Shown here in pieces: positions 3,852 to 53,076 of a DNA stretch of 64,000 nt. Numbering within the stretch: the first letter of the stretch is position 1; every line of letters starts with the position of its first letter. The DNA lies in the NCBI GenBank assembly GCA_026391835.1, contig JAPLDF010000041.1:62001-126000 (forward strand). The letters are read 5' to 3'. A program made the position numbers and the translations under genes. The DNA is from Bacteroidota bacterium (GTDB taxonomy: Bacteria > Bacteroidota > Bacteroidia > Bacteroidales > FEN-979). Under the pieces are notes generated by a model that ran no database searches, was not told where the DNA came from, and saw only the letters and a program-made list of their open reading frames with translations.

Positions 3852-3876
3852 ATTTTAAGATATTTTCTATAAAGGC

Positions 3877-4110
3877 ATGGAAACAACAATCATTAATATT
3901 TTATCAGGACTTCGTCCCGAATTTGATTTTTCGGAGGATGTAGATTTTATGGAAGAAGGGATGTTGGATTCTTTTGATATTGTAAACCTGGTAACAGCTT
4001 TGGATACTGAATATGGCATTTCCATTGACGGGATGGATATTCTGCCCACAAATTTTTCCAGTGTTTCTAAAATTGTAGCTTTGTTGCAAAAAAACGGGGT
4101 AAAATCATGA
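3877..4110 (+). CDS. Acyl carrier protein 2
   Basis: 77 residues, acidic and predicted helical, with the phosphopantetheine serine at Ser32 in GMLDSFDIV, a canonical DSF/DSL-type site. The stop codon overlaps the start of the next KAS III gene (ATGA at 4107-4110), so translation of the two is probably coupled and the pair may act together. It lies 25 bases after the first KAS III gene. Of the three carrier proteins this one has the most conventional prosthetic-group site. Confidence 0.88.
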   Translation: METTIINILSGLRPEFDFSEDVDFMEEGMLDSFDIVNLVTALDTEYGISIDGMDILPTNFSSVSKIVALLQKNGVKS

Positions 4111-5171: not shown

Positions 5172-5174
5172 ACG

Positions 5175-5402
5175 ATGGCAATTATGGAGCAATTAAAGGA
5201 AAAATTAAGTGTGATATTTGAGTTGGATAAAATAGATACAACATTAAAATTTGTCGATTTGGAGGAATGGGATTCTTTATCAAGTTTGTCAATCCTGGCT
5301 ATGCTAGACTCAGATTACAATATGGCAATGAGCAATGCCGACCTGTTAACGTATTCGACAATCCAGGACTTTTGCGATTATGTCATTAAAAACAGAAAAT
5401 AG
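5175..5402 (+). CDS. Acyl carrier protein 3
   Basis: 75 residues with the prosthetic-group serine at Ser34 in LEEWDSLSSL. An alternative start at 5184 would shorten it by three residues. It resembles carrier protein 1 around the site (LEEW-S-L) and less so carrier protein 2, so 1 and 3 may be duplicates. Its 3' end overlaps the next reductase gene by 23 bases in another frame, which implies translational coupling and a functional link between the two. Confidence 0.88.
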   Translation: MAIMEQLKEKLSVIFELDKIDTTLKFVDLEEWDSLSSLSILAMLDSDYNMAMSNADLLTYSTIQDFCDYVIKNRK

Positions 5403-6126
5403 CTATATACTGGTCTCTGCTGCCACTTCCGATATAGGCTATGCAACCGTTAATCGTCTGGCTGCAACAAATAACCTGATCCTGCACGGCCGCGACCAGG
5501 TAAAACTTGCATCATTGCTGAACCGGGTAAGCACCAGTCATAAAATCATCCTATGGTGTTATGATTTAAAATTTGTTGACGGCATCCAGGAGAGCTTGAA
5601 AAAAGTACTGGCAGAAAATGACATTACAATTTCAGGATTCGTTCATTGCGCTGGTACGTTGCGGATTTTACCGTTGAAGAATTTCAGGCTTGACTATGCC
5701 AGGGAAATTTTTGATGTCAACTTTTTCAGTGCGGCCGAGATTGTCAAAACGCTTTTGCTTAAGATCAACAAACAGGAATTAGCCTGCATTGTGCTGATCT
5801 CTGCCCTTTTTAGTAAATTTGGCAATAAGGGAAATTCGATGTATGCTGCCAGCAAGGGAGCGCTTGATTCATTTGTCAATTCAATGGCTGTTGAACTTGC
5901 TCCTGCTGTGAGGATCAATTCGGTGTTGCCGGGAGGGCTGAGAACCAGCATGACTGCACATTTGTTTGATTCGGAAGAGCATATGAAGGGGTTCAGGGAG
6001 AAGTATCTTTTAGGGGAGGGGGAGTGTGATGACGTTGCCGCCATGGTTGCATTCCTTATGTCGCAGGATGCAAAATGGATAACCGGCCAGCATTTTACCG
6101 TAGACGGCGGAGCTACCTGTCATTAA
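5380..6126 (+). CDS. Short-chain dehydrogenase/reductase with degenerate glycine motif
   Basis: 248 residues with the SDR fold. The catalytic residues are intact: Ser141, Tyr155 and Lys159 in YAASKG, and HCAG near residue 89. The C-terminal GQHFTVDGGATCH is family-like. The N-terminal cofactor motif reads SAATSDIG where classical enzymes have TGxxxGIG: the first glycine is Ala and the second is Asp. NAD(P) binding may therefore be altered, although TSDIG variants occur among polysaccharide-locus SDRs. It overlaps carrier protein 3 by 23 bases. The likely role is a second beta-keto reduction or another redox step on a carrier-bound acyl chain. Confidence 0.85.
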   Translation: MSLKTENSYILVSAATSDIGYATVNRLAATNNLILHGRDQVKLASLLNRVSTSHKIILWCYDLKFVDGIQESLKKVLAENDITISGFVHCAGTLRILPLKNFRLDYAREIFDVNFFSAAEIVKTLLLKINKQELACIVLISALFSKFGNKGNSMYAASKGALDSFVNSMAVELAPAVRINSVLPGGLRTSMTAHLFDSEEHMKGFREKYLLGEGECDDVAAMVAFLMSQDAKWITGQHFTVDGGATCH

Positions 6127-6136
6127 AACAAACAAC

Positions 6137-6982
6137 ATGAAAGAAACAATATTATTCAACAGCAAAACCGGCAAGGTATCCAATATTGATTTTTTCAATG
6201 CGCTTCTTTCAATAGATGCGGATAAGGCAGATGTATTGTATATCCATACGGCACTTAATTTTGGTGTTCCGGGTGGCCTGATGAAAAAGGAGTTGCTGGA
6301 GTCCATTTACGCCACCTTAAAGGATCTGGGTGTTTCAACGTTGATTTTCCCTGCGTATACATTCAGTTTCTGCAATGGAAACGGGTTTAACCTGCAAACC
6401 TCGAAGACGCCGATGGGCCTGTTAAATGACTTTGTCAGGCAGAAAGATGAAGCTGTCAGGTCAGTTGATCCCCTCATGTCGAATGTTCTCATTGGCAAAC
6501 ATACCAACTTCGTAACGAAAATCGGGAAATGCTCGGTTGGGAAAAATTCCACTTTTGACCTTTTGCATAACACCGATTTAAAGGTGAAATTCCTGTTCCT
6601 CGGTCCGAAAATCGGAGATTGTTTCACTTTCATGCACTATATTGAAGAAAACGAGGAGGTTCCGTACCGGTATAAAAGAATGTTCACCGGGGAAATCACC
6701 GATGGGGCCAAAACATATATTGACAGTTATGAACTTTTTGTGCGCTACAGCAATGTCAATCCTGGCACCGGGTCGTATATTTATGAAAATATCCTCCTGG
6801 AAAAGGGAATCGCTAGAAAACATAAGATCGGCGACAGCGCAATCACCATTCTCGACGAACAACCTGCCTATGCCTGCTATGTCGATTTACTAAAACTTTC
6901 TCCCAGTTTTTATATCAGCGAGCCCTTTGATGCCAGCTCCAAAACCACAAAGTTTGAAGTAAAGAATATGGTTGCCTTATAA
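6137..6982 (+). CDS. AAC(3)-family N-acyltransferase
   Basis: 281 residues matching the aminoglycoside 3-N-acetyltransferase family (Antibiotic_NAT fold). Visible signatures are IHTALNFGVPGG near residue 36, TLIFPAYTFSFC, the AVRSVDPLMSNVLIGK region, then STFDLLH and TFMHYIEE. In drug-resistance enzymes the corresponding segment usually has a His-Pro pair; here it is Asp-Pro, as in homologues found in surface-polysaccharide loci. Together with the aminotransferase downstream this suggests acylation of an amino group on a sugar rather than antibiotic resistance (inference). It starts 10 bases after the reductase. Confidence 0.85.
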   Translation: MKETILFNSKTGKVSNIDFFNALLSIDADKADVLYIHTALNFGVPGGLMKKELLESIYATLKDLGVSTLIFPAYTFSFCNGNGFNLQTSKTPMGLLNDFVRQKDEAVRSVDPLMSNVLIGKHTNFVTKIGKCSVGKNSTFDLLHNTDLKVKFLFLGPKIGDCFTFMHYIEENEEVPYRYKRMFTGEITDGAKTYIDSYELFVRYSNVNPGTGSYIYENILLEKGIARKHKIGDSAITILDEQPAYACYVDLLKLSPSFYISEPFDASSKTTKFEVKNMVAL

Positions 6983-6993
6983 TCAAGTCAGCC

Positions 6994-7641
6994 ATGGGAA
7001 TTAAGATTAAAACAATAAAGAACAACCCGGTTGAATCCAACTGTTATATCATTTCAGCTGACAAGGATCAAAGCTGCATTGTAATCGATCCCGGTGAAAA
7101 AGAGTGCGAACAGCTATTAAGCTACCTGGAAGAGAACTCACTGACACCCGGATTCATCATTTTAACACACGAACATTTTGACCATATCTGGGGCGTTAGC
7201 AAATTAAAAAGCATTTATGATTTTAAATTGATCTGTTCGCGGTACTGTTCAGGGAGGATTACAACGCAAAAAGGAAACCTGTCCGTATTTTACGACCAGG
7301 TCGGGTTTGTTACCAACCCTGCTGACATTACGGTTGAAGAAATGAATTACCTGTTGCCATGGGTTGGCGGAGTTGTAAAATTCATTCCAACACCCGGACA
7401 TACAGGCGGATGTGTGTGTGTTGATGTTGACAACAATTTATTTACCGGTGATTTTATGATCAAAGGAGTAAGGACAAATACAAAATTACCAGGTAGCAGC
7501 ATTGAAAGGTTAAACGAAAGTTTTGAGACTGTGTTGTCGTCTTACCGGGATAACGATCCCTTTGTTTACCCGGGGCATGGCGAACCTTTTTATTTCCATG
7601 AGGTTGTTTCAACATTGAAATCAGCAATTCCTGTAAAATGA
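6994..7641 (+). CDS. Metallo-beta-lactamase-fold hydrolase
   Basis: 215 residues of the glyoxalase II-like branch. The metal ligands are clear: HEHFDH at residues 59-64, His in PTPGHTGG, Asp in FTGDFM and His in YPGHGEP. Such enzymes hydrolyse thioesters such as S-lactoylglutathione, and some act on carrier-bound thioesters. In this operon it could release or proofread the acyl chain, but that is inference; a general glyoxalase II role is equally compatible with the sequence. The gene overlaps the next one by four bases (ATGA at 7638-7641). Confidence 0.85.
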   Translation: MGIKIKTIKNNPVESNCYIISADKDQSCIVIDPGEKECEQLLSYLEENSLTPGFIILTHEHFDHIWGVSKLKSIYDFKLICSRYCSGRITTQKGNLSVFYDQVGFVTNPADITVEEMNYLLPWVGGVVKFIPTPGHTGGCVCVDVDNNLFTGDFMIKGVRTNTKLPGSSIERLNESFETVLSSYRDNDPFVYPGHGEPFYFHEVVSTLKSAIPVK

Positions 7642-8381
7642 AAATCGCAAAACTGGCTGTTGATTCTAAAATACTGAAACGCAGGTTGTTCGAAATTATT
7701 GATTTTGACAACGACTGGATCTCGTTCGAAAAACAGGAACCCGAACTGATCAATTCAAAAGATCCCCACTATATTCAAATACGGATTGAGAGCAAGAACC
7801 TCGACATTATTAATTATTTCGAGGATCATGGATTCCGTTTTGCTGAATTTAAAATTTACAGGAGATTGTCAACCAACAATGATCTGATCAGCAGTGCCGT
7901 ACTTTATCCATTTTCGGTCAGATCCGTCACAGAAAAGAAAAAACTCAACGACGTTCTGAAGATTGCGGCAACAGCTTCTTTTGAGGACCGGTTTTCGATG
8001 GACCATCATTTTTCAGAGGCCCTTTCAAAAGAAAGGAATCTCTCGTTCATTAAACGGTCTTTTAACCGGGATGATGAATTCCTGCTTGAGTATTTCAACC
8101 AACAAAATGACCGGACTGTTGGCTTTCAAACCGGGAAGTTCATCAGCCGGTCAGAGGTAATGTTGCATCTGAATGGCGTTTCCAGCGATCTGGATGGAAT
8201 GAATTACCGCGAACTTTTTGACCATTTGCTTTACAACTGGCTTAAGACAAACAAGATCAAATTTATTTATGCCGTTTCCAGCGGACTGAATATGAATGAG
8301 ATGAATCTGGCTATAAACAGGCAGGGTTACACCATCGAATCAACAAGTGTTATCTTGCGAAAAATATACCGTAATGATTAA
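7638..8381 (+). CDS. GNAT acyltransferase resembling amino-sugar N-acyltransferases
   Basis: 247 residues. The layout (divergent first half, then [11 protein letters not shown] and a GNAT core with [21 protein letters not shown] and a C-terminal [20 protein letters not shown]) resembles WecD/RffC, which acetylates dTDP-4-amino-4,6-dideoxygalactose. It overlaps the upstream hydrolase by 4 bases and the downstream aminotransferase by 8, so all three are translationally coupled. The parsimonious role is acyl transfer to the amino group made by that aminotransferase. Whether the donor is acetyl-CoA or one of the carrier proteins cannot be read from the sequence. Confidence 0.75.
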
Positions 8382-34867: not shown

Positions 34868-36328
34868 ATGAAAACGAAACTTATTTACTTCACCTGTTCC
34901 ATTGTGCTGATTTTTCTCATTGGGGTACAGGTATGCGCCCAGACAACCATCACTGGGGGGTCCTGGCTGGTAATCGCTGACGGCGGCAAACTGGTTTCAA
35001 CTAAGAATGTTGTTGTGCAGAACGGAGGCGGAATTTATGGCAATGGCAACAGTTCCCTCATCCTGAAGAAGGACCTGATCAACCAGAATATTGGCAGTAT
35101 CAACTGGATTTCTGTCAATAACGTGGAATTTTCGGGGAGTGAGAATCAGCACATCACCGGAAGAAGCAGTTTTTTTAATGTTGCCGTAAACAATCCTGCC
35201 GGACTGACCCTTGACGGGAATACCTATGTCGAAAATGGGCTGGTCCTGTCCCTTGGCCATTTGATGCTTGAAAACAATGACTTAACCCTGGGACATAATG
35301 GCGTGTTTGGCGGGACACCATCCGTGTCGGCCATGGTTGTTCCGACCGGTACCGGACATCTTTTTAAAAATGTCATGGAGGGTTATTCAACGACCTTTAC
35401 CTTCCCGGTTGGCAGCAACACCGGAACCGCGTCATATTCCCCGGCAACACTGAATTTCACAAGCTTTCCTTTGACATATGCCATCAAACAGGTCGGAATC
35501 AACCTTGCAAATGTAAAATATCCCGACCCGGCGATAACCGGAAATTATCTAAACCGCTACTGGAGCCTGGCAGAATCCGGTTTTACAAGTTTTACCTGTA
35601 ACGCAACCTTTCAGTATGTGCCCGCCGATGTGACAGGAAGCGAAACTGTGTTATCCTGCACCCGCGTGAACCCGTTGCCATGGATTACCTACGGCCTGAC
35701 TGATGCAACAACCCACATGCTTGTGGCTACAGGCATCACATCCTTTGGTTCATACACCGGGTTAAAAAGCACAACAACTCCTGCCAACCAGGAATTAGTC
35801 AATATTAACATTCCCGATGGTGTCTCCAGTTGTTATGATGCTACGCAAACAATAACAGTTGCCGGGAATGGTAAAACATTTATGGTAAACTATGGAGGCA
35901 GCGCCATTCTGGTTGCAGGACAGAAAATTTCCATGCTGCCCGGCACACAGGTTTCGCCTGGCGGTTACCTGCATGGCTATATTGCAGACAATGGCAACTA
36001 TTGTGTCAGTCAGCCTCCTGCTTTGATGAACAGCGTAGCAATGGGAATGGATGCAGTGAGTGTTTTCCGTGGAACAACCGGCGAACACCAGGTCAGGGTA
36101 TACCCGAACCCTGCTTCAGGGATGTTCACCGTTGAAGTTAACGGGAATGACAACACTGGTTTAACTGCGATAGAGATATACAGTATGACCGGTATCAGGC
36201 TGACAAGGGAAAATCTCCATGGAGAACAGAGTCATCTGAGCTCAGTGACCGGTTTCATGCCAGGCCTCTATTTCATCAGGGTTTACACAGAAAACCAGGT
36301 TACAACGGTGAAATTAATTAAAAATTAA
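34868..36328 (+). CDS. Secreted T9SS cargo protein
   Basis: 486 residues. An N-terminal signal peptide (MKTKLIYFTCSIVLIFLIG...CAQ) is followed by beta-rich sequence without a recognised enzyme domain (VVVQNGGGIYGNGNSSLIL and similar). Near residues 315-380 is a module with SSCYDATQTITVAGNG, GGSAILVAGQKISMLPG and GGYLHGYI, shared with the two giant proteins at 40592 and 45827. The last 80 residues (VRVYPNPASGMFTVEV to TTVKLIKN) form a T9SS type A sorting domain, so the protein is exported and held at or released from the cell surface. It sits between the two S74 paralogues, 42 bases after one and 59 before the other. Confidence 0.88.
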   Translation: MKTKLIYFTCSIVLIFLIGVQVCAQTTITGGSWLVIADGGKLVSTKNVVVQNGGGIYGNGNSSLILKKDLINQNIGSINWISVNNVEFSGSENQHITGRSSFFNVAVNNPAGLTLDGNTYVENGLVLSLGHLMLENNDLTLGHNGVFGGTPSVSAMVVPTGTGHLFKNVMEGYSTTFTFPVGSNTGTASYSPATLNFTSFPLTYAIKQVGINLANVKYPDPAITGNYLNRYWSLAESGFTSFTCNATFQYVPADVTGSETVLSCTRVNPLPWITYGLTDATTHMLVATGITSFGSYTGLKSTTTPANQELVNINIPDGVSSCYDATQTITVAGNGKTFMVNYGGSAILVAGQKISMLPGTQVSPGGYLHGYIADNGNYCVSQPPALMNSVAMGMDAVSVFRGTTGEHQVRVYPNPASGMFTVEVNGNDNTGLTAIEIYSMTGIRLTRENLHGEQSHLSSVTGFMPGLYFIRVYTENQVTTVKLIKN

Positions 36329-40591: not shown

Positions 40592-43500
40592 TTACAATTT
40601 AACCAGCTTCATTGTCTCCACATACCCGTCGGCCACAACTTTTACGAAGTACATTCCGGCAGCCATGTCAGGGAACCTGAAATCATGCGATTTCTCCCCG
40701 ATCATGTTTCCCGTCATTACTTTTTCACCGCGGATGCTGAACACTTCAATTTTTACATTGTTGTATTGAGCACCGGTTTTCTGCACCAGAGTGAAATTCC
40801 CGGTTGTGGGATTCGGGTAAATATTGAAATTGACCTGTTGGGAGCCTGGCACGCTCTCCTGCGATCCGCCTGCACCGTCAACCATTGGAGCATCCTTGGC
40901 ACCGCAGTAGGATCCGGTTGAAATGTAACCGTGCATATAACCACCTGCCTCCACACGCGTCCCCAGCAGATAGAGGATATTCTGCCCGGCCACCATGGTT
41001 GCACTGCCGCCATTCAGGACTACAAAAGTATCGTCCCCTCCGGCAACCGTGACTGTATTGGTAGCATTGTAACAGGTATCGGTTATGCCGGAAACCGTTC
41101 CGGCAACAGTTGTGTTTTCAGGAATGGAGCCAGGCGTTGTAAAAGTCATATCGTTTCCATAGATAATGCTGTTGGCAAAAGTTACTGCCCTCAGGCGGAA
41201 GTGATATGGAGTATTTCCTGAAAGTCCGGTTAAGGAGGCAGTTATCGGCTGGGGAGTACCTCCCGTTAAGGTAGAGGGTGTTCCTGAAACGGTATTGCCG
41301 TATGCTGCAGAAGTTCCATAGTCAAAATAGAGACTTAAGTTCTCGCCGGCAGGGGTTGCAATACCATTGAGCGTTGCTGCAGTTGCCGAAACACCGGTGG
41401 CAGGATTGGTAACAAGCGACGGACCCGGGGTGAATTCATAAGCTCCCATGTCGGGAGGATCGGTTCTCAGCACACCGGCAATATCCGATGGTAAAGAAGG
41501 AAGGTAGTACCCGGCTTTGGGAAAGGATCCAGATGTTGGAAGCAAATACGTTGGGGATGTGAAAGCCGGGTCAAAACCTGTGGAATGAATATCCTGCCCG
41601 GTGGCTGCCTTCCAATCAGGAAGTGAAAGAAAAGTGGAACCGTTCATCACCCCGATGTGGTGGGCGCACCCATCAACATAATAATCGTTGTAGTCGATAA
41701 TTGAAAAATTTGCCGCATTGCTTGCAGTCGTTGCAATCGCATAGGTTTTACCGTCTAAAGGACATGTTCCGGTTAATCCCATCATGGAATTTTTCAGGAT
41801 GTTGTTCCTTATCTCGATGTTATTTGAACGGACTCCGTCCTGATATATCCCGATGCATGAAGACGAAGCATCACGTACATCGGTCGGAGAGAGCACGTTT
41901 CCATACAGATATATAGAATTATGTATAATCTTGATGTTTCCGCCGCTGTAAATGTAAATACCGTAAGGATTATTCGGTGACACCCCGGGTGCGGCACCCG
42001 ATGATTTGATGCCATAAATTGCGTTGTCGGAAATTTCCGTTTCAGTATTGCCCTCCGCCTGGTACCAGATCCCATAAGCCCCGGACCCGTCGTCAACATT
42101 CCTGTAGAAATCATGGATCAAATTCTTTCGGATCTTGGTAAAAGTTGTATAACCAAGGATATATACCCCTCCATGGAGCGGCACACCGTTCCCGAATTCT
42201 GATCCCATGATGTTGTTTCCCGAAATCAGGGTATTATCGCAGTATTGCAGCAGAATTCCCTTGGCAACGATATAGTCTGAAGGATTTGACGAACCGATCA
42301 CATTTCCCGTGATCTGCCCGTTCGTGGTGATCCAGCTAAAGTTACCTGTGAACTGGATCCCGGTGTTGGCAGCACAGATAGAGTCATCCATGATGACAAT
42401 ATCGTCGTACCCCCCGCTCACCGAACTTAGCAGAATGCCATAGTTCGTAACCGTTGTTGAGCTTACGCCCTTGATGACTGAATTCCTGATGATATTGTGT
42501 GAAGCAGGATCGGTTCCACCTTTATTGAACATACCGATCACATAGGCACCTGTGGTTTCACTGGTATTTTTAAAAGTCAGGCTTTTATCGGAACCACCAT
42601 TGACAGAACCATCGATGATGAGGTAATCGAAGCCATTTACCTTTATCAGTCCACTGGATACACTGGCGTCTGCCAGCACAGGGTGCACACCGGTATTGGG
42701 TTTTATGGTGAGGGTATTGGTACTGCTGCTTCCGCCATTAGGCTCCAGTATGATCGGGAAGGTTTCGGCCGGATAGGCATTGTCGGTAAGCACGAGGGTG
42801 ACCGGGCAGGTAATGCCTTTTGAATTGATATCGCTGATGGCGGCAGTAAGCGTCGGATAAGCCCCTCCTGATCCTACATTGAACGTTCCGCATATCGATG
42901 AAACAATCACATAACTGGCAGGTGCGGATGGATAGGTTGCGACTGCCGGAGGGTTGGCTGTAAACCCGGCAGCACCGGCAAAGGGAAATGAGTTGACATT
43001 TGGGGAGGCCCACAAATCCTGTGCTAAAATGAAGTAATACACTGAATCTCCCAATGCCGTTCCGGCACCGAAGCTAAAGGAATACTGGTTGCTGCCCAGT
43101 GATGTACCGGTAACGTATGTCCAGGTACCGCCAAAATTTTTCTTCCAGCAAACACGGGGCAACCCAGTTCCCGTAACGGGCACACCATGGATGTCGGTGA
43201 TGGTTGCAACCAGTGTGCGGTCGCCGGTGGTAGCGACATTGGCAAGCGGGGAATAGGTAATAAGGGGCGGGGTAAGGTCGGCAGGGATCCCTCCGAATTC
43301 ATCTGCACCAATATCCGGGGCATTTGCCGGAAAGGTAGGATGAACAGGATATCCCGGGTTCGGATAACGGGGATTATCGTCGAAATCTGTCGTTATTTTC
43401 ATCGGAACTGCCACGATACTTCCTCCGCTTTCACATTGGGATGGAACCGCATTGCTGACATGAAGGTCGCAGGGGGTCGTTGTTGAAATAAAAGGGGTAT

Positions 43501-45520
43501 TTTCTGTGACCGAAAGGTATTCGCGCGGGCTCATCCGGATTTTATATTGCAGCAGGGTTGAATCACTGTTGGTTCCATCGCTGAATATCAGCCTTTGTGA
43601 GGAGGGAGTTCCCGCATAGTAATTGTTGTTATTTGAGGTTGTGGAAAGGTTTCCGAAATTCAGGGAATCTGTCAGTACGGCTATGGTCTTTCCGGTCCCG
43701 TTCGGCGTTGATGTATTGATGATGATGTTGTTCCGTGTATCCAGCACCTGGATGTATTTTGTGACCATAAGCCCGGTTGTACCAAAATTGGCCCCTATTG
43801 AAGTCGAATTCAGGTAGACCGTGTTGTTGTATAGTCCTGTTGAGATGGAATTGAACCCGAACAGGTATATTCCCTTGATGGCAGATACAGATGACGTTGT
43901 ACCGGCCTTGAGGTCGCCGACAATGTTGTTATAGATATAGATGCTTCCGGCCCCGGTTAGGTTGCCAAGATATATCCCTGTTATAAGGCTGGCAGTACCC
44001 GGCCCGCTGATGTTCTGGACCCTGTTGTTGTAGATATTCCAGTTATAGCCGGCATCAATGTTGATCCCGTAAGTTGTTCCTTTTGCTTCTGAAAGATTGG
44101 TGAAAGAGTTGTTATAAAAGTTTTTGGTGATTGGCCGGTTGACGTTGCAATATATTCCATACACCGTCCCGGTAGTTGTCGAGGTATTGTTGTCGCAAAT
44201 ATTTCCGTAACAGTTCAACGTGTAACACTGAATACCAAGCTGCATATAGGTTGTTGTTCCTCCCACACCTGAAGGGGATTGGATCCTGGTATTGTTACTG
44301 ACTGTATTGTTATAAACATCAGAAGTTCCCAATACTGTTGGCAGGGCACTGGTAACGATATAAGTCACCGCCCCCTGGGAGGTGGTTGTGGAAGAGCCAT
44401 ACTGATTCCCTGTAACCAAGTTGTTATAGATGCTGACACTTGGGCCGCCATGGGAAATGTTCAGATAATTACAATTGCTGGAGGTAGCGGTTGGATAAGT
44501 GCAGTTGGTTATAACATTATCATGAATACTTATGATATTTGTTGTCGAGGTCGTACCCATGGTTTCCCAGATACCATAAAACACCCCTGTACCGTTGTAT
44601 TGAACACTCACAGTATCGCCGTAAACATAGACACTGGCATTGCTGGTACTTTGGAATTGCATCCCGTAACAAGCACTTCCACCGGGCACCGACCCGCTGA
44701 TCTTGTTTTTGGCAACCGTCAGGTTATTCTGGTACTGGCAATAGAATCCACTTGGAGATCCTGTGGTAGTCCCGAAATTCGATATCTTGTTTCCTGCCAC
44801 AGACCCGAAATCGTTGTATTGGTCATAGTTTGTATATGGGGCAACAGAAGCAACTCCCATCGCATAGATCCCGTTGAAACAATTTGTTATCACATTTCCC
44901 TGGAATGAGTTGTAGGAGTTGGCCTGGAGCACATTTTTGATACCCCTGTTAGTCCCGGGAGTGTCACTTCTCCATGATCGGAGATTGATCCCAACAGTAC
45001 CGGTATTGGTACGATTCAACGAAATACTGCAGTTTTTAATGGTTGCATGCTGCGTCCCACTGGTATCAGCGACAGCTTTCATCAGCAGATAACCGCTCTC
45101 GGTTTGTGTCGTTGCAGTTACATGTGCAGCATTATCAATCACATCAATCCCGTCGAAGGTCACATAGTCGGTACCGGCTATGGCAAATACATAATCAGCG
45201 GTGCCTGTCCCGTTGGCGGAGGTAATTAACGGATTGGACCCGGTGCCATCCTTTTGAAAAATAATCGGACTTGATGCCAGGCTGTTGGCGCATGTTATCA
45301 ATCCGGCTGAGGCACTTGAAAACGTCTCGGTATACCCTGCAGCCACTTTAAAGGTAACCCCGGGGGCTGCAACGCCCTGGCTGTTCAACGCAGCTATGGC
45401 GGCAGTGATCGTCGGGTAATTGGGCGAGCCGTCAGGAATATAATAGGTTCCGGATAACTGCCCAAAAGACAATTGACAGAACGTTATTCCCAGGAACAAC
45501 GTAATAATGATTTTTTTCAT
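40592..45520 (-). CDS. Giant secreted T9SS beta-helix protein 1
   Basis: 1642 residues. Signal peptide MKKIIITLFLGITFCQLSFGQ; then a first beta-helix-like region with many N-x-I/V-x-N-N repeats (roughly 60-700), a middle fibronectin/Ig-like region (about 760-870), a second beta-helix region (about 890-1330) and a fibronectin III-like segment (NGIATPAGENLSLYFDYG) near 1400. A Cys-Tyr...GGYMHGYI module precedes a T9SS type A sorting domain (FNIYPNPTTGNF to METMKLVKL). It is expected to be displayed or released at the cell surface; beta-helix proteins often bind or cleave polysaccharide, but no catalytic motif is evident. It is a paralogue of the next gene. Confidence 0.88.
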   Translation of the reverse strand: MKKIIITLFLGITFCQLSFGQLSGTYYIPDGSPNYPTITAAIAALNSQGVAAPGVTFKVAAGYTETFSSASAGLITCANSLASSPIIFQKDGTGSNPLITSANGTGTADYVFAIAGTDYVTFDGIDVIDNAAHVTATTQTESGYLLMKAVADTSGTQHATIKNCSISLNRTNTGTVGINLRSWRSDTPGTNRGIKNVLQANSYNSFQGNVITNCFNGIYAMGVASVAPYTNYDQYNDFGSVAGNKISNFGTTTGSPSGFYCQYQNNLTVAKNKISGSVPGGSACYGMQFQSTSNASVYVYGDTVSVQYNGTGVFYGIWETMGTTSTTNIISIHDNVITNCTYPTATSSNCNYLNISHGGPSVSIYNNLVTGNQYGSSTTTSQGAVTYIVTSALPTVLGTSDVYNNTVSNNTRIQSPSGVGGTTTYMQLGIQCYTLNCYGNICDNNTSTTTGTVYGIYCNVNRPITKNFYNNSFTNLSEAKGTTYGINIDAGYNWNIYNNRVQNISGPGTASLITGIYLGNLTGAGSIYIYNNIVGDLKAGTTSSVSAIKGIYLFGFNSISTGLYNNTVYLNSTSIGANFGTTGLMVTKYIQVLDTRNNIIINTSTPNGTGKTIAVLTDSLNFGNLSTTSNNNNYYAGTPSSQRLIFSDGTNSDSTLLQYKIRMSPREYLSVTENTPFISTTTPCDLHVSNAVPSQCESGGSIVAVPMKITTDFDDNPRYPNPGYPVHPTFPANAPDIGADEFGGIPADLTPPLITYSPLANVATTGDRTLVATITDIHGVPVTGTGLPRVCWKKNFGGTWTYVTGTSLGSNQYSFSFGAGTALGDSVYYFILAQDLWASPNVNSFPFAGAAGFTANPPAVATYPSAPASYVIVSSICGTFNVGSGGAYPTLTAAISDINSKGITCPVTLVLTDNAYPAETFPIILEPNGGSSSTNTLTIKPNTGVHPVLADASVSSGLIKVNGFDYLIIDGSVNGGSDKSLTFKNTSETTGAYVIGMFNKGGTDPASHNIIRNSVIKGVSSTTVTNYGILLSSVSGGYDDIVIMDDSICAANTGIQFTGNFSWITTNGQITGNVIGSSNPSDYIVAKGILLQYCDNTLISGNNIMGSEFGNGVPLHGGVYILGYTTFTKIRKNLIHDFYRNVDDGSGAYGIWYQAEGNTETEISDNAIYGIKSSGAAPGVSPNNPYGIYIYSGGNIKIIHNSIYLYGNVLSPTDVRDASSSCIGIYQDGVRSNNIEIRNNILKNSMMGLTGTCPLDGKTYAIATTASNAANFSIIDYNDYYVDGCAHHIGVMNGSTFLSLPDWKAATGQDIHSTGFDPAFTSPTYLLPTSGSFPKAGYYLPSLPSDIAGVLRTDPPDMGAYEFTPGPSLVTNPATGVSATAATLNGIATPAGENLSLYFDYGTSAAYGNTVSGTPSTLTGGTPQPITASLTGLSGNTPYHFRLRAVTFANSIIYGNDMTFTTPGSIPENTTVAGTVSGITDTCYNATNTVTVAGGDDTFVVLNGGSATMVAGQNILYLLGTRVEAGGYMHGYISTGSYCGAKDAPMVDGAGGSQESVPGSQQVNFNIYPNPTTGNFTLVQKTGAQYNNVKIEVFSIRGEKVMTGNMIGEKSHDFRFPDMAAGMYFVKVVADGYVETMKLVKL

Positions 45521-45608
45521 GTTTTTAGGTTTTTAGTTAATACTCTTTTTATCCCTGCATATTGACTGTAAAAATACCCACTCCATATAAAGCATATCGT
45601 TAAACACC

Positions 45609-45649
45609 TATTACATAAACTGTACAGCCTTATTACAAAACCTGTACAA
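45609..45649 (-). promoter_or_regulatory. 22-bp-phased direct repeats upstream of giant T9SS gene 1
   Basis: Two copies of TATTACA-N5-TGTACAG (plus-strand reading; the second ends in A) start at 45609 and 45631, exactly 22 bases apart, 88 bases before the start codon of the gene at 45520. The same pattern lies upstream of the second giant gene. Direct repeats two helical turns apart are typical of sites for tandem-binding regulators such as LytTR proteins. The remainder of 45521-45700 contains no gene. Confidence 0.6.
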
Positions 45650-45700
45650 GCAGGTAACCGAAAAACAACACATCTGACTTTAAGGCACTTACACTTTTAC

Positions 45701-45729
45701 AAAAAAACCGCCCCGGTTTCCCGGGACGG
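45701..45729 (-). terminator. Intrinsic terminator of the second giant T9SS gene
   Basis: Same hairpin as at 40444-40472: a 9-bp stem around a GAAA loop and seven T on the minus strand, about 100 bases after the stop at 45827. The sequence from here to the gene end is nearly the same as at the first copy. Confidence 0.9.
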
Positions 45730-45786
45730 CCTAACCAAACACAACATCATTTTCTTTTTCCCTCAGTTCCCAGGGTAGATCCTTCT

Positions 45787-45810
45787 CCCCTTCTCCTTGA
45801 GGAGAAGGGG
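45787..45810. repeat. CCCCTTCTCC hairpin repeat, copy 2
   Basis: A perfect 10-bp stem with loop TTGA, followed by GGGGGATGAGG. Counterpart of 40529-40552, in the same place relative to its gene. Confidence 0.75.
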
Positions 45811-45826
45811 TCAGGGGGATGAGGTA

Positions 45827-48800
45827 TTACAGTTTAACCAGCTTCATTGTCTCCGCATACCCATCGGCCACAACTTTTACAAAGTACAGCCCGGTTGCCA
45901 TGTCGGAGAAGCTGAAATCGTGCGACTTCTCGCCGATCATGGTTTCGGTCATCACCTTGTCGCCGCGCATGGTGAACACTTCAACTTTAACATTGCCATA
46001 GAGTTTGTCGCCCTTCTGAACCAGCGTAAAGTTTGCGCTGGCAGGATTCGGGTAGATGCTGAAGTTAGCATTCTGCAGGGTATTCGGTGTGGTCATTTCT
46101 CCCGCAGCTACAGCCGGCATGGCCGGAGGATTGCAGTATGTGCCCGGCGAAATATAGCCATGCATATACCCTCCATTTTGTACAATGGTACCCGGCAAAA
46201 AGGATATCTTCTGCCAGGCGATAAACGTCGCACTGCCCCCGCTCTGAACCTCAAAAGTAGTTCCACCACCGGCAACAGTGATCATGTTTGAAGCATTGTA
46301 GCAGTTGCTGACCGTTTCCCCAATCGTACCTGTAACAGTGATGTTTTCAGGGATTCCGCTTGCCGTGGTAAAGGTCATGTCGTTGCCATAGACTGTAATG
46401 CCGCCGAAAGTGACCGCCCTGATCCTGAAATGATAGGTGGTGTTTGCTGTAAGACTGGCTATTGCAGCATTAATGTTCAGCAGAAGGCCTCCGTTAACTG
46501 TAAACGGGTTTCCATTGACCGATGTACCATATGCAGTGGTAAGTCCATAATCAAAATAGACATTTACATCCAGGGATGTGGGATTGATTGTTCCGTTCAG
46601 GGTTGAGGAATTTACAAGGATGTCTGTTGCAGCGGTTGTGGCTATTGCCGGAATTGGGGAGAACTCGAATGCTCCCATGTCCGGCGGATTTGTGCGGGCC
46701 ACACCTGCATAGTCAATTGGCAGGGCAGGAATGTAAATCCCGGCTTTCGGCATGGCAGTGGAAGTAGGCAACAGGTTGGTAGCGGATGTAAATACCGGGT
46801 CAATATTTTTTGCGTGTGCATCCATGGAGGTTATTGTCTGCCAGTCTAGCAGTGTTGGTTTGTCGACACTGTTGTACGAAGCAAGAACAGCTCCGACCCC
46901 ATCGCAAAAATAATCGTTGTAGTCAAGTGTGGTGAAAGCCGAAGGGCTTATTCCGACTGCGATGCAATAGGATTTGGATGCTGCCGTACCGCCGGGAAGA
47001 AGCTGGGAGGAATTTTTCAGGATATTGTTCCGGAAATCGACAAGAGTGATGCTGTTCCTGAAATAAACACAAGCCGAAACAGCAGCGGTTGTCGTATTCA
47101 GGTAGCTACCTTCCATCCAGATCGAATTGTGCTGAATCTTAAAATTGGTTCCTGAATTGACATATAAACCGATGGCATTTGGTCCATTAAAAGCGAGGCT
47201 TGATCCAGTACTTTTGATATTGTATATGAGGTTATTTGAAATTTCCGTCACTGTTGGTGTATTCGAACTATAAAAGATCCCTGTTGATGGGACTGCTGCA
47301 TCCAATGAGTACAGGTCATGAATGGTATTGTGTTTGATGGTTAAAAGGGTCACACCGCTGGTAATATTGATACCAATCGGCTGGCCAAGATAAAACCCAC
47401 TCATTCCTGCAGGTGGACCAAGAATCTCATTGTCCTGGATAAGCACATTATTTGTATAGCCTACTGAAATTTCAAGAGCGGTAATCGCTTGCGATGGATC
47501 TGATGAGCCAACAATGTTGTTGGTAACCACTGCATTGTTGCATGGATTTGAGGTGATACCGGCAATCTGGATACCGAATTTACCAGCTTTCACCTCATTA
47601 TTTGTGAATAAAAGGTCGTGGTAGCCCGCATTTCCTACGATTGTAAAGCATACAATTCCCTGTTTGTTTCCGACATAATCGGTAAATGCCTTCACAATAC
47701 AGTTCCTGATGGTAATATTTCCGGCACCTGCAAGGCCGTTATTATGCAAACCGATAACAGCAGACCCTCCAACTCCGGAAAAATAGTTGCTGAAGGTCAT
47801 GCTCCGGTCGCTGCCGCCGCTGTTCGATCCGTCGAAGATCACATACTGGCATCCGTTCAGACTGATCATGCTGTAATAATATGGACCAACAGTAGCAATC
47901 GACGTCTCAATCAATGGTGTTTTACCGGCAGCCGGGCGAAGGGTCACCGTATTCACTGCACTGGTACCCGGGATCGGGTTGATGATCATTGGCCAGGTTT
48001 CGGTTGGGTAGGTGTTGTCTGTGAGTTCGAGGACAACCGGGCAATTGACCCCTTCTGCCGCCAGATCATTGAATGCCTGGGTAATGGTCTGGTAAAACTT
48101 GCCAACACCAACCGTCAGGGTGCCGCACCTTCCTGCAATGACTTTGTAAGCGCTGGTAGCAGTTGGTGGAACGGAGGCTGCCGGGGGGGAAACTGAAAAT
48201 CCGCCTGAGCCGATCAAGGGATAGGTTCCAACATTGGGCGTGGTAAACTGGTCCTGTGCCAGGACATAATAATAAACACTGTCGCCCGAACTCACACCGG
48301 CACCGAATGTGAAAGTGTACTGGCTGCTGCCAATAGAAACCCCGTCAACATAATTCCAGGTTCCGGTATAAAACTTTTTCCATGCCAGGCGTGGCATACC
48401 CAAACCGGAGGTCGGCACTCCATGAGCATCTGCGATGGTGGCAGTCAGAATGCGGTCATCTGTCGAAGTGGAGTTTGCCAGGGGTGTGTAGATGATCACC
48501 GGGGCAAGCCTGTCATCAGGTATCCCTGCCAGTTCATCCGCCCCCATATCGGGCGCAACAGCCGGATAAGTGGGATTTTCAGGATACCCGGCATTTGGAT
48601 ATCTTGCATCATAGTCAAAATCGTTCACAATGCTCACCGGTGTAGAAACAACTGTACCGGCACTTTCACATTGAGTAGGAAGTGAGGTGCTTAAATGAAG
48701 GTCGTAAGGTGAAGTAGTCACATTAACAAATGGTGTGTTCTCAGAAACAGAGTAACACTCCTTTGGCCATTCTCTCGTTTTGTAGTCATTCAGTGTCATA

Positions 48801-50785
48801 TCAGTGACAAAGTTTGTTCCGTCGGTAATATAGGCGATCAGGTGTGTTGAAGATGGAGTTCCGGCAAAGTAATTGTTATTGTTGACAGCTGGGCTGAAAT
48901 TTTGCACCCCGGGGAAAAACAAACTGTATTTATTCGATTTCATGGCTATCGCAAGGCCGGTACCGGTAGGAGTGGTATTGTTTACAATGATATTGTTGCG
49001 TACGTCGATCGAGGCAGGTGCTGATCCAAGATAGAGACCTACGGTGCCAAACCCGGAACCGGTTGAAGTACCATCCAGGTAAACGGTGTTATTAAAGATG
49101 CCAAGTGTGGCAAGACCGCTACCAAACCCATAAATACCATAAAGTGCATTTGGCGAGGTAGAGTTGGGCGCTTTTAATTCGGAGATCATGTTATTGTAGG
49201 CGTATAATGGGCCTCCTGAGCTTGAACCCTGGAGCCATAAACCATATACGATGGAGGAGGCAGCGACACTGCCTAACGTTTTCATATTCTGAACTTTATT
49301 GTTATATACAGATTGGTTGTTCCCCTCCGACATATACACACCGATAACCTGGCCATTGGCCTGGTGAATGTTCCTGATGGTGTTGTTGTAGCAGTTTTTC
49401 ACCAAAGAGCCGTTATTCAGATACAGACAATAGGTAATACCGACCCCAACTGTGTTATTCGTGTCATTGGCAACGAGATTGTCGTGAACGTTGATCATGG
49501 CCTGGGTTCCGCCAGCGACGAGGTACATGTAGTAGGTTGACCCGGTTCCTCCGGCAGCCGATTGTTTTCGGACAATACCGGATATTGTATTTCCATAGTT
49601 ATTTGTAGTTGACTGAGTTGTCGGACCTCCTCCTGTATACATGCCATAGATCGCTCCTGTTGCGGCAACTGCAGATGAACCATATGTATTGTTGGTGATC
49701 TGGTTGTTGTAATGGTTTATGGTAACAGCAGAGTTGGTGTTATACATATAGTAGCAACTATTGGAGGTTGCATTGGGGTATGTACAATTCGTAACGATGT
49801 TGTTGTAAAAATTGTACGTGTTGTTTGTACAAGTCGATCCCATGTTATTGTAGAAACCATAGAAATTTGCAACACCGTTATAGGCGATGGTCACTGTATT
49901 GCTATAGACGTTTACATTTGCATTGTTTGCAGTATTCAACTGGATACCGGCGCAGGTCCCCGCACCGTTGCTGTTTACGGTACCGTTCACCAGGTTATTC
50001 GCGATGGTCAGGCGGTTCTGGTAGGAGGTGAAGATTCCATAGCATGCAGTTGAGTTTCCCCCGGGTCCTGTAACGGTGTTCCCGCCATCTTTACCGAGCT
50101 CATTCGACTGATCATAGTATGTATAAGGAGAAACCGCATCAGCAAATCCGTTGACAACGATGCCGCTGTAACAACCAGAGATCGTGTTACTGAAAAATTT
50201 ATTATTTGAATTTGACCCGGCAACATCCGTTACAGTGAGTTGTGCGGCAGGTAAAGTTCCGGGCAGAATATTTGCTGAATAGATCCCTACCGTGTTGGCA
50301 TTTGACTGCTTCAGGGTGATATTGCAGTTTTTAATGGTTATAAACTGTGAACCGTTTGTAGCCGAACCCTTCAGAACGGCATAGCCCCATTCAATTGAAC
50401 CGGTTGCATCGGCAACATCAATTCCATCGAAGGTAATATAATCGGCTCCCTGCAGTCCGAATACATAATCGAATGCATTGGGGCCTGCTGTGCAGCCGCT
50501 GATTACCGGGTTGGCTCCGCCGACACCGCGCTGGAACACGATTGGATTGGCCGCTGTACCAGTTACAGTAATCAATCCGGAGTTGAGGGCAGGCAGGGTT
50601 TCTGCATAGCCTCCGGCAATCACGAAGGTCACCCCTCCGGTGCCAACACCCAATCCATTGAGTGCGAAAATTGCATTGCTGACAGTCGTGTAGTCGCCCG
50701 GGATATTTTTTGTACCCGTTAACTGCCCGAAAGACAACACACTGATAATCATAACAAAAATGATGGTAACAATTGTTCTTTTCAT
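45827..50785 (-). CDS. Giant secreted T9SS beta-helix protein 2
   Basis: 1652 residues from the ATG at 50785, where MKRTIVTIIFVMIISVLSFGQ gives a signal peptide; the frame is open 28 codons further upstream, inside the small gene at 50802. The domain order copies protein 1: beta-helix, Ig-like middle (DDRLAPVIIYTPLANSTSTD), second beta-helix, fibronectin III-like segment (LNGTINPTSLDVNVYFDYG), Cys-Tyr...GGYMHGYI module, and T9SS sorting domain (FSIYPNPASANF to ETMKLVKL). The last 80 residues of the two are almost identical, the rest clearly diverged. No catalytic motif was recognised. It probably shares a transcript with the small gene upstream. Confidence 0.88.
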   Translation of the reverse strand: MKRTIVTIIFVMIISVLSFGQLTGTKNIPGDYTTVSNAIFALNGLGVGTGGVTFVIAGGYAETLPALNSGLITVTGTAANPIVFQRGVGGANPVISGCTAGPNAFDYVFGLQGADYITFDGIDVADATGSIEWGYAVLKGSATNGSQFITIKNCNITLKQSNANTVGIYSANILPGTLPAAQLTVTDVAGSNSNNKFFSNTISGCYSGIVVNGFADAVSPYTYYDQSNELGKDGGNTVTGPGGNSTACYGIFTSYQNRLTIANNLVNGTVNSNGAGTCAGIQLNTANNANVNVYSNTVTIAYNGVANFYGFYNNMGSTCTNNTYNFYNNIVTNCTYPNATSNSCYYMYNTNSAVTINHYNNQITNNTYGSSAVAATGAIYGMYTGGGPTTQSTTNNYGNTISGIVRKQSAAGGTGSTYYMYLVAGGTQAMINVHDNLVANDTNNTVGVGITYCLYLNNGSLVKNCYNNTIRNIHQANGQVIGVYMSEGNNQSVYNNKVQNMKTLGSVAASSIVYGLWLQGSSSGGPLYAYNNMISELKAPNSTSPNALYGIYGFGSGLATLGIFNNTVYLDGTSTGSGFGTVGLYLGSAPASIDVRNNIIVNNTTPTGTGLAIAMKSNKYSLFFPGVQNFSPAVNNNNYFAGTPSSTHLIAYITDGTNFVTDMTLNDYKTREWPKECYSVSENTPFVNVTTSPYDLHLSTSLPTQCESAGTVVSTPVSIVNDFDYDARYPNAGYPENPTYPAVAPDMGADELAGIPDDRLAPVIIYTPLANSTSTDDRILTATIADAHGVPTSGLGMPRLAWKKFYTGTWNYVDGVSIGSSQYTFTFGAGVSSGDSVYYYVLAQDQFTTPNVGTYPLIGSGGFSVSPPAASVPPTATSAYKVIAGRCGTLTVGVGKFYQTITQAFNDLAAEGVNCPVVLELTDNTYPTETWPMIINPIPGTSAVNTVTLRPAAGKTPLIETSIATVGPYYYSMISLNGCQYVIFDGSNSGGSDRSMTFSNYFSGVGGSAVIGLHNNGLAGAGNITIRNCIVKAFTDYVGNKQGIVCFTIVGNAGYHDLLFTNNEVKAGKFGIQIAGITSNPCNNAVVTNNIVGSSDPSQAITALEISVGYTNNVLIQDNEILGPPAGMSGFYLGQPIGINITSGVTLLTIKHNTIHDLYSLDAAVPSTGIFYSSNTPTVTEISNNLIYNIKSTGSSLAFNGPNAIGLYVNSGTNFKIQHNSIWMEGSYLNTTTAAVSACVYFRNSITLVDFRNNILKNSSQLLPGGTAASKSYCIAVGISPSAFTTLDYNDYFCDGVGAVLASYNSVDKPTLLDWQTITSMDAHAKNIDPVFTSATNLLPTSTAMPKAGIYIPALPIDYAGVARTNPPDMGAFEFSPIPAIATTAATDILVNSSTLNGTINPTSLDVNVYFDYGLTTAYGTSVNGNPFTVNGGLLLNINAAIASLTANTTYHFRIRAVTFGGITVYGNDMTFTTASGIPENITVTGTIGETVSNCYNASNMITVAGGGTTFEVQSGGSATFIAWQKISFLPGTIVQNGGYMHGYISPGTYCNPPAMPAVAAGEMTTPNTLQNANFSIYPNPASANFTLVQKGDKLYGNVKVEVFTMRGDKVMTETMIGEKSHDFSFSDMATGLYFVKVVADGYAETMKLVKL

Positions 50786-50801
50786 CGTTTTGGTTTTTTG
50801 G

Positions 50802-50993
50802 TTAAGACTCTTTTTCCTGTTCATTCTTATTTTCAGCACCCGGATTACCGGTATCGCCCTGGTGATCATCAGGAATACCGGTGATTCCCTGGAGTTTCTT
50901 TAGCAGTTCGTTCTCCGCCTTCTTTCTCCTGATCAGTTCTGAGAGATCATCCAGCCAGGAAGCGGGTTTTTCATTTTCATTCAGTTCATCCAT
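50802..50993 (-). CDS. Small charged protein upstream of giant T9SS gene 2
   Basis: 63 residues, highly charged: MDELNENEKPASWLDDLSEL, then a helix-prone IRRKKAENELLKKLQG, then a Gly/Asp/Asn-rich tail. I do not recognise a family. Support for a real gene is contextual: a full TTTG-N20-TAGATTTG promoter lies 38-69 bases upstream, and the 22-bp-phased repeats sit just beyond that. The stop is 16 bases before the start of giant gene 2. It has no signal peptide, so it would stay in the cytoplasm. Alternatively the region is a leader for the giant gene. Confidence 0.5.
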   Translation of the reverse strand: MDELNENEKPASWLDDLSELIRRKKAENELLKKLQGITGIPDDHQGDTGNPGAENKNEQEKES

Positions 50994-51030
50994 GGTGCAG
51001 TGCAGAAATTCAGATTGGACATTTCACCGG

Positions 51031-51062
51031 CAAATCTATTCCCCAAACAACACATAGTCAAA
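51031..51062 (-). promoter_or_regulatory. Bacteroidota-type promoter of the small gene/giant T9SS gene 2
   Basis: Minus strand: -33 box TTTG at 51059-51062, a 20-base spacer, and -7 box TAGATTTG at 51031-51038. This is an exact fit to TTTG-N19-21-TAnnTTTG. The start codon at 50993 follows 37 bases later. Confidence 0.65.
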
Positions 51063-51070
51063 TAATACCA

Positions 51071-51111
51071 TATTACAAAAGCTGTACAGGCATATTACAT
51101 TGCATATCGAG
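51071..51111 (-). promoter_or_regulatory. 22-bp-phased direct repeats upstream of the second giant gene's promoter
   Basis: TATTACA-N5-TGTACAG at 51071-51089 and a weaker copy (TATTACA exact, second half 4 of 7) at 51093-51111, again 22 bases apart. They end 8 bases before the -33 box of the promoter at 51031-51062, the place expected for an activator that touches RNA polymerase. Confidence 0.6.
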
Positions 51112-51159
51112 CTTGATTTTCTGATAGTTACAGAGATGGAGGTAAGTTAAGGACAACGT

Positions 51160-51285
51160 CTTTTGAGACCTTCCAAAGATGACCTTTGTGCCCTTTGTGA
51201 AAAATCTTCGTGCCTTTGTGGTTAAAAAAAGCTAACCACAAAGGCACAAAGGAGGCACAAACGACACAAAGGGGGTTTTGGAAAG
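51160..51285. repeat. Palindromic CACAAAGG element
   Basis: A perfect 15-bp stem (GTGCCTTTGTGGTTA at 51210-51224 and its complement at 51233-51247) with an 8-base loop, flanked on both sides by further CTTTGTG/CACAAAG copies that can extend the hairpin. It lies beyond the 3' end of the TPR-LuxR gene and holds no reading frame. The remainder of 50994-51300 is the operator and promoter described separately. Confidence 0.75.
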
Positions 51286-51300
51286 TGATGGTATGTCTGC

Positions 51301-53076
51301 CTACAATTGAGAAAGGAAGATCACCAGGTTTTCATCCTTGCTAATGCCAAGTTTTTGCCGCAGGCGGGATCGTGCGACCATAAGGCTGTTCTGTGACTGG
51401 TAGGTGATGGCGGAAATCTCCTTGGTACTCATGTTTAACCTGAGAAAAGCGCACAATTTCAACTCATTCGGGGTAAGATCGGGAAACTGGTCCCCAAGTT
51501 TTTTGTAAAAATCGGTATGTACCTGCTGAAACCTCACTTCAAAATCTTTCCAGTTATCCGGGTTCGAAGCACGTTCCAGTTCACCGATGATTGATTTTAT
51601 GATTCTCGCATTTTCTGAGTCGTTGGCGAGATCCATTTTCTTCAGTTTTTCGGCCAGAACCAATACAAGTTCATTCATCCTGGTGAGATACATTACATTG
51701 GTAGTCAACTCCTTATTTTGAAAATCAAGTTTTTCATTCAGGCCCTGCTTTTCAATTTCGAATTTTTGCTTTTTCTGTTTTTCCAGTTTCAGCATCAGGA
51801 AAAGGATCAGGATTACCGCGAGCAAAACAATCCCGCTTGCAATATAAACGATCAAAATGGTACGTTTTGACGATTTGGCCATGGCCATGCTCAACTCGTC
51901 ATCCTGGCGTTTTTTCTCGTATTCCTGCCTGACTTCCATCAGTTTAACTGCCTTGATATTCCCGGATTTTGCAAGACTGTCGGCCTGGGCCATGAATATC
52001 TTGTAGTAGAACAATGCCGAATCAAGTCTTGACCGATGCTCGTGGACCTGGCTTAGCTGCTGGGCGGAGACCATGATCTGCCTTACCTGCTTCATCGACC
52101 TGGCGACCGAATACCCTTCCAGGTTATATATCAAGGCTTTATGCATATCTCCCATTTGATACCAGGTGTCGCCCAGTCTTGCCAGCAATTCAGAATACTG
52201 AATGTTCGGTGGTCCGGGATGGATGCTGGCATGTTTTCTTTGGAGTTCAAGGCTTTTGTTGAGCATTGTTATTGCGCCGGGCAGATCAAGCTGTTTGCTC
52301 TGGATCATTCCATGAATCATCAATCCGCGTGATTCCATGATATTGTCCTTTGCCTTGTTTGCAACCTCAATGGATTGCCGCGCATAATCCTTCGCCATAT
52401 CCAGGTTGCCGAGGTAAAAGTAGCATTCACTCAGGTTCAGAAGCGGGTAAGCGACATTGACTGTATCGCCGATCTTCCGGAACAGTTGAAGTGCCCTGAT
52501 AAAGTACCCGAGCGCCGTGTTAAAATCATCGGAATCCATATAAATGTTCCCGACATTGTTGAGGACATGCGGTAAGATTTTATATAACTGCAGCTTTTCG
52601 GAAAGATCGATTACCTCCATGTAATAGGTCATGGCTTCGGCAATATTGTCCCTGACAAGACAGATGCTCCCCATCATCGATTTCATACGGGCATAAAGAA
52701 CCTGATCATTTGAATTTCTGTAATATTTTGCGGCGAGGGTGAAATTCAGAAATGCCTGGTCAAGCTGGTTCTTCTTCAATGCATAGAAAGCTGCCTGTGC
52801 ATACACATCCGCAAGCGGCTTTTCAGATTTCAGACGCCAGGCAAGGTTTTGGGCCTCCTTCCAGAAAATCTCGGCGGAATCAGGGTTGGCAGTCTCGTAA
52901 ACCTTTGAAATCGCAAGGTACAGTTCGATCTTTTTTATGACGTCGTCTGTTCTGAAGAGTTCCCGATGGAGACTGTCTGCCCTTGGTATGCCAGCGAATG
53001 AAACATTGAATGGCAGGATTGCCGTACAGACAAGAAAAAGGACGTAAAATAATATTTTTATATAAGAGCCTGACAA
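51301..53076 (-). CDS. Membrane-tethered TPR-LuxR-type regulator
   Basis: 591 residues. Order: signal/anchor helix (about 6-28), tetratricopeptide repeats over about 60-370 (for example HVLNNVGNIYMDSDDFNTALGYF), a membrane helix at about 410-430 (VYIASGIVLLAVILILFL), a coiled coil, and a C-terminal LuxR-like helix-turn-helix (LTPNELKLCAFLRLNMSTKEIS to RLRQKLG). There is no kinase or receiver domain. Such proteins in Bacteroidota are thought to act as one-component regulators held in the membrane, with periplasmic TPRs sensing a protein or peptide. It lies next to the giant T9SS genes and the repeats upstream of them, so it is a candidate regulator; this is inference. Confidence 0.87.
   Translation of the reverse strand: MSGSYIKILFYVLFLVCTAILPFNVSFAGIPRADSLHRELFRTDDVIKKIELYLAISKVYETANPDSAEIFWKEAQNLAWRLKSEKPLADVYAQAAFYALKKNQLDQAFLNFTLAAKYYRNSNDQVLYARMKSMMGSICLVRDNIAEAMTYYMEVIDLSEKLQLYKILPHVLNNVGNIYMDSDDFNTALGYFIRALQLFRKIGDTVNVAYPLLNLSECYFYLGNLDMAKDYARQSIEVANKAKDNIMESRGLMIHGMIQSKQLDLPGAITMLNKSLELQRKHASIHPGPPNIQYSELLARLGDTWYQMGDMHKALIYNLEGYSVARSMKQVRQIMVSAQQLSQVHEHRSRLDSALFYYKIFMAQADSLAKSGNIKAVKLMEVRQEYEKKRQDDELSMAMAKSSKRTILIVYIASGIVLLAVILILFLMLKLEKQKKQKFEIEKQGLNEKLDFQNKELTTNVMYLTRMNELVLVLAEKLKKMDLANDSENARIIKSIIGELERASNPDNWKDFEVRFQQVHTDFYKKLGDQFPDLTPNELKLCAFLRLNMSTKEISAITYQSQNSLMVARSRLRQKLGISKDENLVIFLSQL

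Follow-up and report, generated by a model that had tools for sequence, protein, structure and literature searches.

The window analysed here is a stretch of 64,000 nucleotides from the genome of a Bacteroidota bacterium (contig JAPLDF010000041.1, positions 62,001 to 126,000), and all coordinates below refer to it unless another contig is named. Its minus strand carries two giant genes, identified as open reading frames (ORFs) and by domain search: giant gene 1 (40592–45520), encoding 1642 amino acids (aa), and giant gene 2 (45827–50785, with its start ATG at 50785), encoding 1652 aa. Both products end in a T9SS sorting tail, with the C-terminal sorting domain (PF18962/TIGR04183) scoring above cut-off in each, and the two proteins are 45% identical. 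A small ORF of 63 aa (50802–50993, minus strand), of a kind that recurs in such cassettes, lies between giant gene 2 and its promoter, and directly upstream of this promoter is the gene for a TPR-transmembrane-LuxR-type regulator of 591 aa (51301–53076, minus strand). Giant gene 1 has neither an adjacent regulator nor a small ORF of its own. A terminator-like hairpin with a T-run, read from the sequence after gene 2 (45701–45731, minus strand), would leave gene 1 with its own promoter.

The promoter of the gene 2 operon has a −7 box, TAGATTTG (51031–51038, minus strand), assigned from sequence and geometry, and a −33 element, TTTG (51059–51062, minus strand), recognized from its sequence. The −7 box fits the Bacteroidetes sigma-A consensus TAnnTTTG (PMC9723704), while the corresponding box of gene 1, TATTTTTA (45569–45576, minus strand), is one base off. 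The gene 1 box was placed by the 39-nt rule described below and is not independent evidence for it.

Upstream of these promoters, the initial annotation had described the word TATTACA-N5-TGTACAG at four positions, as one pair with exact 22-bp spacing ahead of each giant T9SS gene. Both pairs indeed lie upstream of the two T9SS-tailed genes of the minus strand, the exact 22-bp spacing is seen at both sites, and the motif at 51071 stops 8 nt ahead of the TTTG-N20-TAGATTTG promoter, as had been claimed. The word itself holds up less evenly. It is exact at 45609 and 51071 and has one mismatch at 45631 (TGTACAA), whereas at 51093 the TATTACA half alone is kept (TATTACATTGCATATCGAG, three mismatches), which makes the second site a half pair.

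The true repeat unit is shorter than this word, and its pitch is 11 bp; the 22 bp noted originally correspond to two rungs of a ladder. Read on the gene strand, the ladder of gene 1 is TGTACAG-N4-TGTAATA-N4-TGTACAG-N4-TGTAATA, and that of gene 2 is TGTAATA-N4-TGTACAG-N4-TGTAATA. The starts of the TGT trinucleotides of gene 1 precede the −7 box by 39, 50, 61 and 72 nt, placing the rungs, by sequence and ladder geometry, at 45609–45615 (TGTAATA), 45620–45626 (TGTACAG), 45631–45637 (TGTAATA) and 45642–45648 (TGTACAG), all on the minus strand. Gene 2 has TGT at 39, 50 and 61 nt before its −7 box, with minus-strand rungs assigned in the same way at 51071–51077 (TGTAATA), 51082–51088 (TGTACAG) and 51093–51099 (TGTAATA). 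The fourth half-site of gene 2, expected as a rung at −72, is degenerate or missing.

The regulator gene was defined by its ORF, a domain search and a structure model. Its product begins with a TPR solenoid and has no N-terminal receiver domain of the type found in NarL response regulators. An AlphaFold2 model of the C-terminal domain (HTH residues about 485–591) has a NarL/LuxR-type HTH of four helices with a long recognition helix, and structure comparison matched this model to DosR (Z 9.7) and then to VpsT, LiaR, VraR, RcsB and NarL, with Z scores of 7.5 to 9.7. The Pfam GerE model aligns over its full length but weakly, at 13.8 bits against a gathering score of 23.5, and a search of the sequences of solved structures with an alignment of the HTH returned weak matches, DosR among them. 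The predicted fold of the DNA-binding domain is like that of the GerE-type proteins LiaR, VraR, DosR and RcsB, although a TPR solenoid and a transmembrane helix here take the place of their receiver or ligand-binding domain, and the GerE match lies below the Pfam cut-off.

A genome-wide set of targets for the originally noted word, as envisaged in the initial annotation, did not emerge from a scan of the genome. With one mismatch or fewer the word has four matches, three of which are at the window locus. Since hardly any exact copies are found elsewhere, there is no genome-wide regulon of the exact word, also by the test of a random-like distribution set in the initial annotation. Across 60 relatives, the exact word was only modestly more frequent than its reversed control, and a single further exact match came to light, in a same-genus genome at the orthologous locus, where the copy of the motif is kept. 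This orthologous locus was found in same-genus genomes, and in another species it retains the regulator, the rungs, the small ORF and the giant gene. At the orthologous locus in one genome (G014), the giant gene is broken into two reading frames (2988–4805 and 4815–7931 of locus L095).

A search for the rungs themselves gave a different picture from the search for the word. Three-rung TGTA ladders with 11-bp pitch occur seven times in 5.35 Mb, compared with once for the reversed control; three are in the window, one is at another pair of TPR-LuxR and giant genes on contig 40, and three are in 11-bp tandem repeats. The noted word is one instance of a recurring class of putative operators, one per TPR-LuxR cassette. 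Tandem repeats of TGTATAAGCTT, with a period near 11 bp, are present on two other contigs (C47:106331–106367 and C65:283–308); these are ladder-like, and no cassette was seen alongside them.

Paralogous regulators found elsewhere in the genus usually have a large secreted gene downstream on the same strand, at a distance of some 300 to 550 nt, and this gene usually has T9SS features. Fifty same-genus promoters were aligned at their −7 boxes, which in 49 cases had been chosen without reference to TGT. In this alignment, TGT is found at −39 (±1) in 39 promoters, against a background of 2.0 per position, and the same position is occupied in 21 of 32 non-redundant promoters. Further TGT peaks appear at −50, −72 and −83, and the 11-bp periodicity has a power of 52 in the non-redundant set, compared with a maximum of 21.5 for random sequences. 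Direct-repeat statistics that make no use of the −7 box likewise peak at lags of 11, 21 and 33. Word identity is highest for direct repeats, at offsets of 11, 33 and 44, while inverted repeats leave a weak signal at 8 and 19. About one-fifth of the same-genus promoters lack the −39 TGT; some of these appear either to use other words or to have had their −7 box mis-assigned. On one same-genus contig (G003:C20), four cassettes are found within about 20 kb, an arrangement that suggests tandem expansion.

The same geometry was sought in an independent set of loci from Bacteroidales, Flavobacteriales and other groups, collected by a scan of named genomes. Across 37 non-redundant regions, the count of TGT-TGT pairs at lag 11 is 44 over a background of 5.0, and there are additional peaks at lags 21–22, 32 (a count of 30) and 43. 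At the same lag of 11, the complementary trinucleotide ACA scores 8 in these 37 regions over a background of 4.5, and TGT in the sequence preceding the regulator genes scores 6 over 5.4, so that no ladder is seen there. Rungs at −39 and −50 are kept in several Flavobacteriales promoters. Outside the genus, too, the order is that of a TPR-transmembrane-LuxR regulator, a TGT ladder, commonly a small ORF, and a large secreted gene that in most cases belongs to the T9SS; the cultured Winogradskyella aurantiaca and Hanstruepera flava are among the carriers of the cassette.

T9SS genes that have no TPR-LuxR neighbor provide a further control. In a set cleared of genes that had lost a neighboring regulator through truncation of the locus, 15 of 16 such genes have no ladder, the sole exception being giant gene 1 of the window. 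A T9SS-tailed gene elsewhere in the window (34868–36328, plus strand), which has no adjacent TPR-LuxR regulator and served as a control, is without a ladder. On this distribution, the ladder goes with the regulator and not with the cargo. The words in the ladder of gene 1 are those of the neighboring operator of gene 2, and the best reading of the exception is that gene 1 would share the operator of the regulator of gene 2.

Small ORFs are a regular component of these arrangements. One of 45 to 78 aa is located just ahead of the secreted gene in most cassettes of the genus, and a small ORF with many charged residues was found in 32 of 42 cases from the independent set. The 63-aa product encoded in the window is charged and helix-prone; it has no Pfam or NCBIfam match, and eight other cassette small ORFs had no Pfam match above cut-off. 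In nine orthologous pairs there are 82 changes at third codon positions, compared with 41 and 29 at the other two; by codon, 69 of the changes are synonymous and 65 non-synonymous. The putative small gene is changing mostly at third codon positions, as coding sequence does. Feedback from the small protein onto the regulator is possible.

The closest precedent for such an array is that of BvgA, a NarL homologue that binds with one monomer per helical turn, in dimers spaced at 22 bp, and with the array abutting the −35 element (PMC7250471). The arrangement described here is similar in its predicted NarL-type HTH, in having one site per 11-bp turn, in the 22-bp repeat and in the placement of the array beside the −35 or −33 element, a likeness of sequence geometry. 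However, BvgA is a soluble, phosphorylated response regulator that forms head-to-head dimers, whereas the repeats here are mainly direct and the regulator is a predicted membrane protein with no receiver domain. Regulation linked to type IX secretion is also known from the PorXY-SigP system of Porphyromonas gingivalis (PMC7712824). There, two-component signalling together with an ECF sigma factor controls the secretion machinery, and the cassettes differ from it in pairing a private regulator with each cargo gene.

We consider it likely that the motif is the operator of the adjacent membrane one-component regulator (51301–53076), which would activate giant genes 2 and 1. From the HTH fold model and the fit of the ladder to a BvgA-like array, the regulator can be expected to bind its own downstream ladder. 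The N-terminal TPR solenoid, predicted to be periplasmic, would sense a signal, and the transmembrane helix and a coiled coil would lead to the cytoplasmic NarL/LuxR-type HTH. HTH monomers would then form a head-to-tail row along a single face of the DNA, with one monomer for each 11-bp turn, such that the promoter-proximal monomer is just upstream of the −33 element and able to recruit RNA polymerase. The operon of the small ORF and giant gene 2 would be switched on from the −7 box at 51038, and giant gene 1, with matching rungs in an identical register, from that at 45576.

In the initial annotation, the repeats were said to fit a tandem-binding activator such as a LytTR protein, and the TPR-LuxR protein was named beside LytTR proteins for footprinting. 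A helically phased, shared operator next to a promoter, probably for a tandem-binding activator and with the adjacent TPR-LuxR protein as a candidate, is supported, while the LytTR assignment is not. LytTR/AgrA-type operators are direct repeats about two turns apart, and both the 22-bp repeats with their TACAG-like words and the 13 LytTR proteins of the genome are compatible with binding to repeats some 21 to 22 bp apart. Against this, none of the 13 genes is on the contig of the window, the real unit pitch is one turn of 11 bp, and the ladder tracks TPR-LuxR genes, a different class of regulator, across the Bacteroidota and is missing from 15 of 16 T9SS genes that lack such a neighbor. A LytTR protein as the binder is consequently highly improbable. 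The association with cargo could also be read as that of a general T9SS promoter element under a global regulator, with the nearby TPR-LuxR genes incidental, since the genes downstream mostly resemble secreted cargo of the T9SS type. This is very unlikely given the 15 ladder-free T9SS genes noted above, and the words differ between cassettes of one genome.

The similarity of the two sites in the window might alternatively be a mere relic of local gene duplication, as the paralogy of the giant proteins would allow. However, the rungs hold an identical register to the −7 box although much of the surrounding sequence has diverged, and unrelated promoters show the same geometry, leaving this explanation barely credible. 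A less distant variant keeps the TPR-LuxR protein on the ladder but has it repress, or act as a switch that does both. The rungs do extend close to the −33 element, yet every one is upstream of it, and sites upstream of the −33 element are in the usual position for an activator. Repression or dual action is unlikely, and it is from this placement relative to the promoter that we infer activation by the TPR-LuxR regulator.

Covariation between the recognition helix and the words of the ladder was considered as proof of a recognition code and set aside. Significant at first (r=0.29, p=2e-4), it is lost once related promoters are removed, and a spacer control correlates too, making the signal inseparable from common descent; across distant sets covariation is weak and lacks specificity for the recognition helix. 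Because it fails these controls, no such code is demonstrated by the data.

Searches of the open-licence literature brought up no account of T9SS cargo being controlled by a TPR-LuxR regulator. The NarL/LuxR HTH, the TPR sensor, the sigma-A promoter and the T9SS cargo are each of known kinds, and what appears new is their combination and its fixed geometry. More probably than otherwise, the cassettes represent a phylum-wide, undescribed set of private switches in Bacteroidota, each comprising a membrane TPR-LuxR regulator, an operator ladder with a rung for every helical turn and a fixed distance to the −7 box, a conserved small protein and a large secreted surface protein, with many duplicates per genome so that a cell can address each member of its panel of surface proteins separately. 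Little is established about how T9SS cargo genes, many of which encode giant surface proteins with no known function, are individually regulated, and for many of them the TGT ladder with its 39 nt to the −7 box predicts the promoter, the operator and the cognate regulator from sequence, cultured marine Flavobacteriia included. The cassettes also flag a family of small proteins easily missed in annotation, and their parallel regulator-operator pairs are natural sets for studying the specificity of paralogues.

Another repeated element is present in the space between regulator and operator. Imperfect inverted repeats of CTTTGTGCCTTTGTGGTTA are found there at 51130–51280, and CACGAAG-type repeats occupy a similar place in other cassettes (loci L121 and L126).
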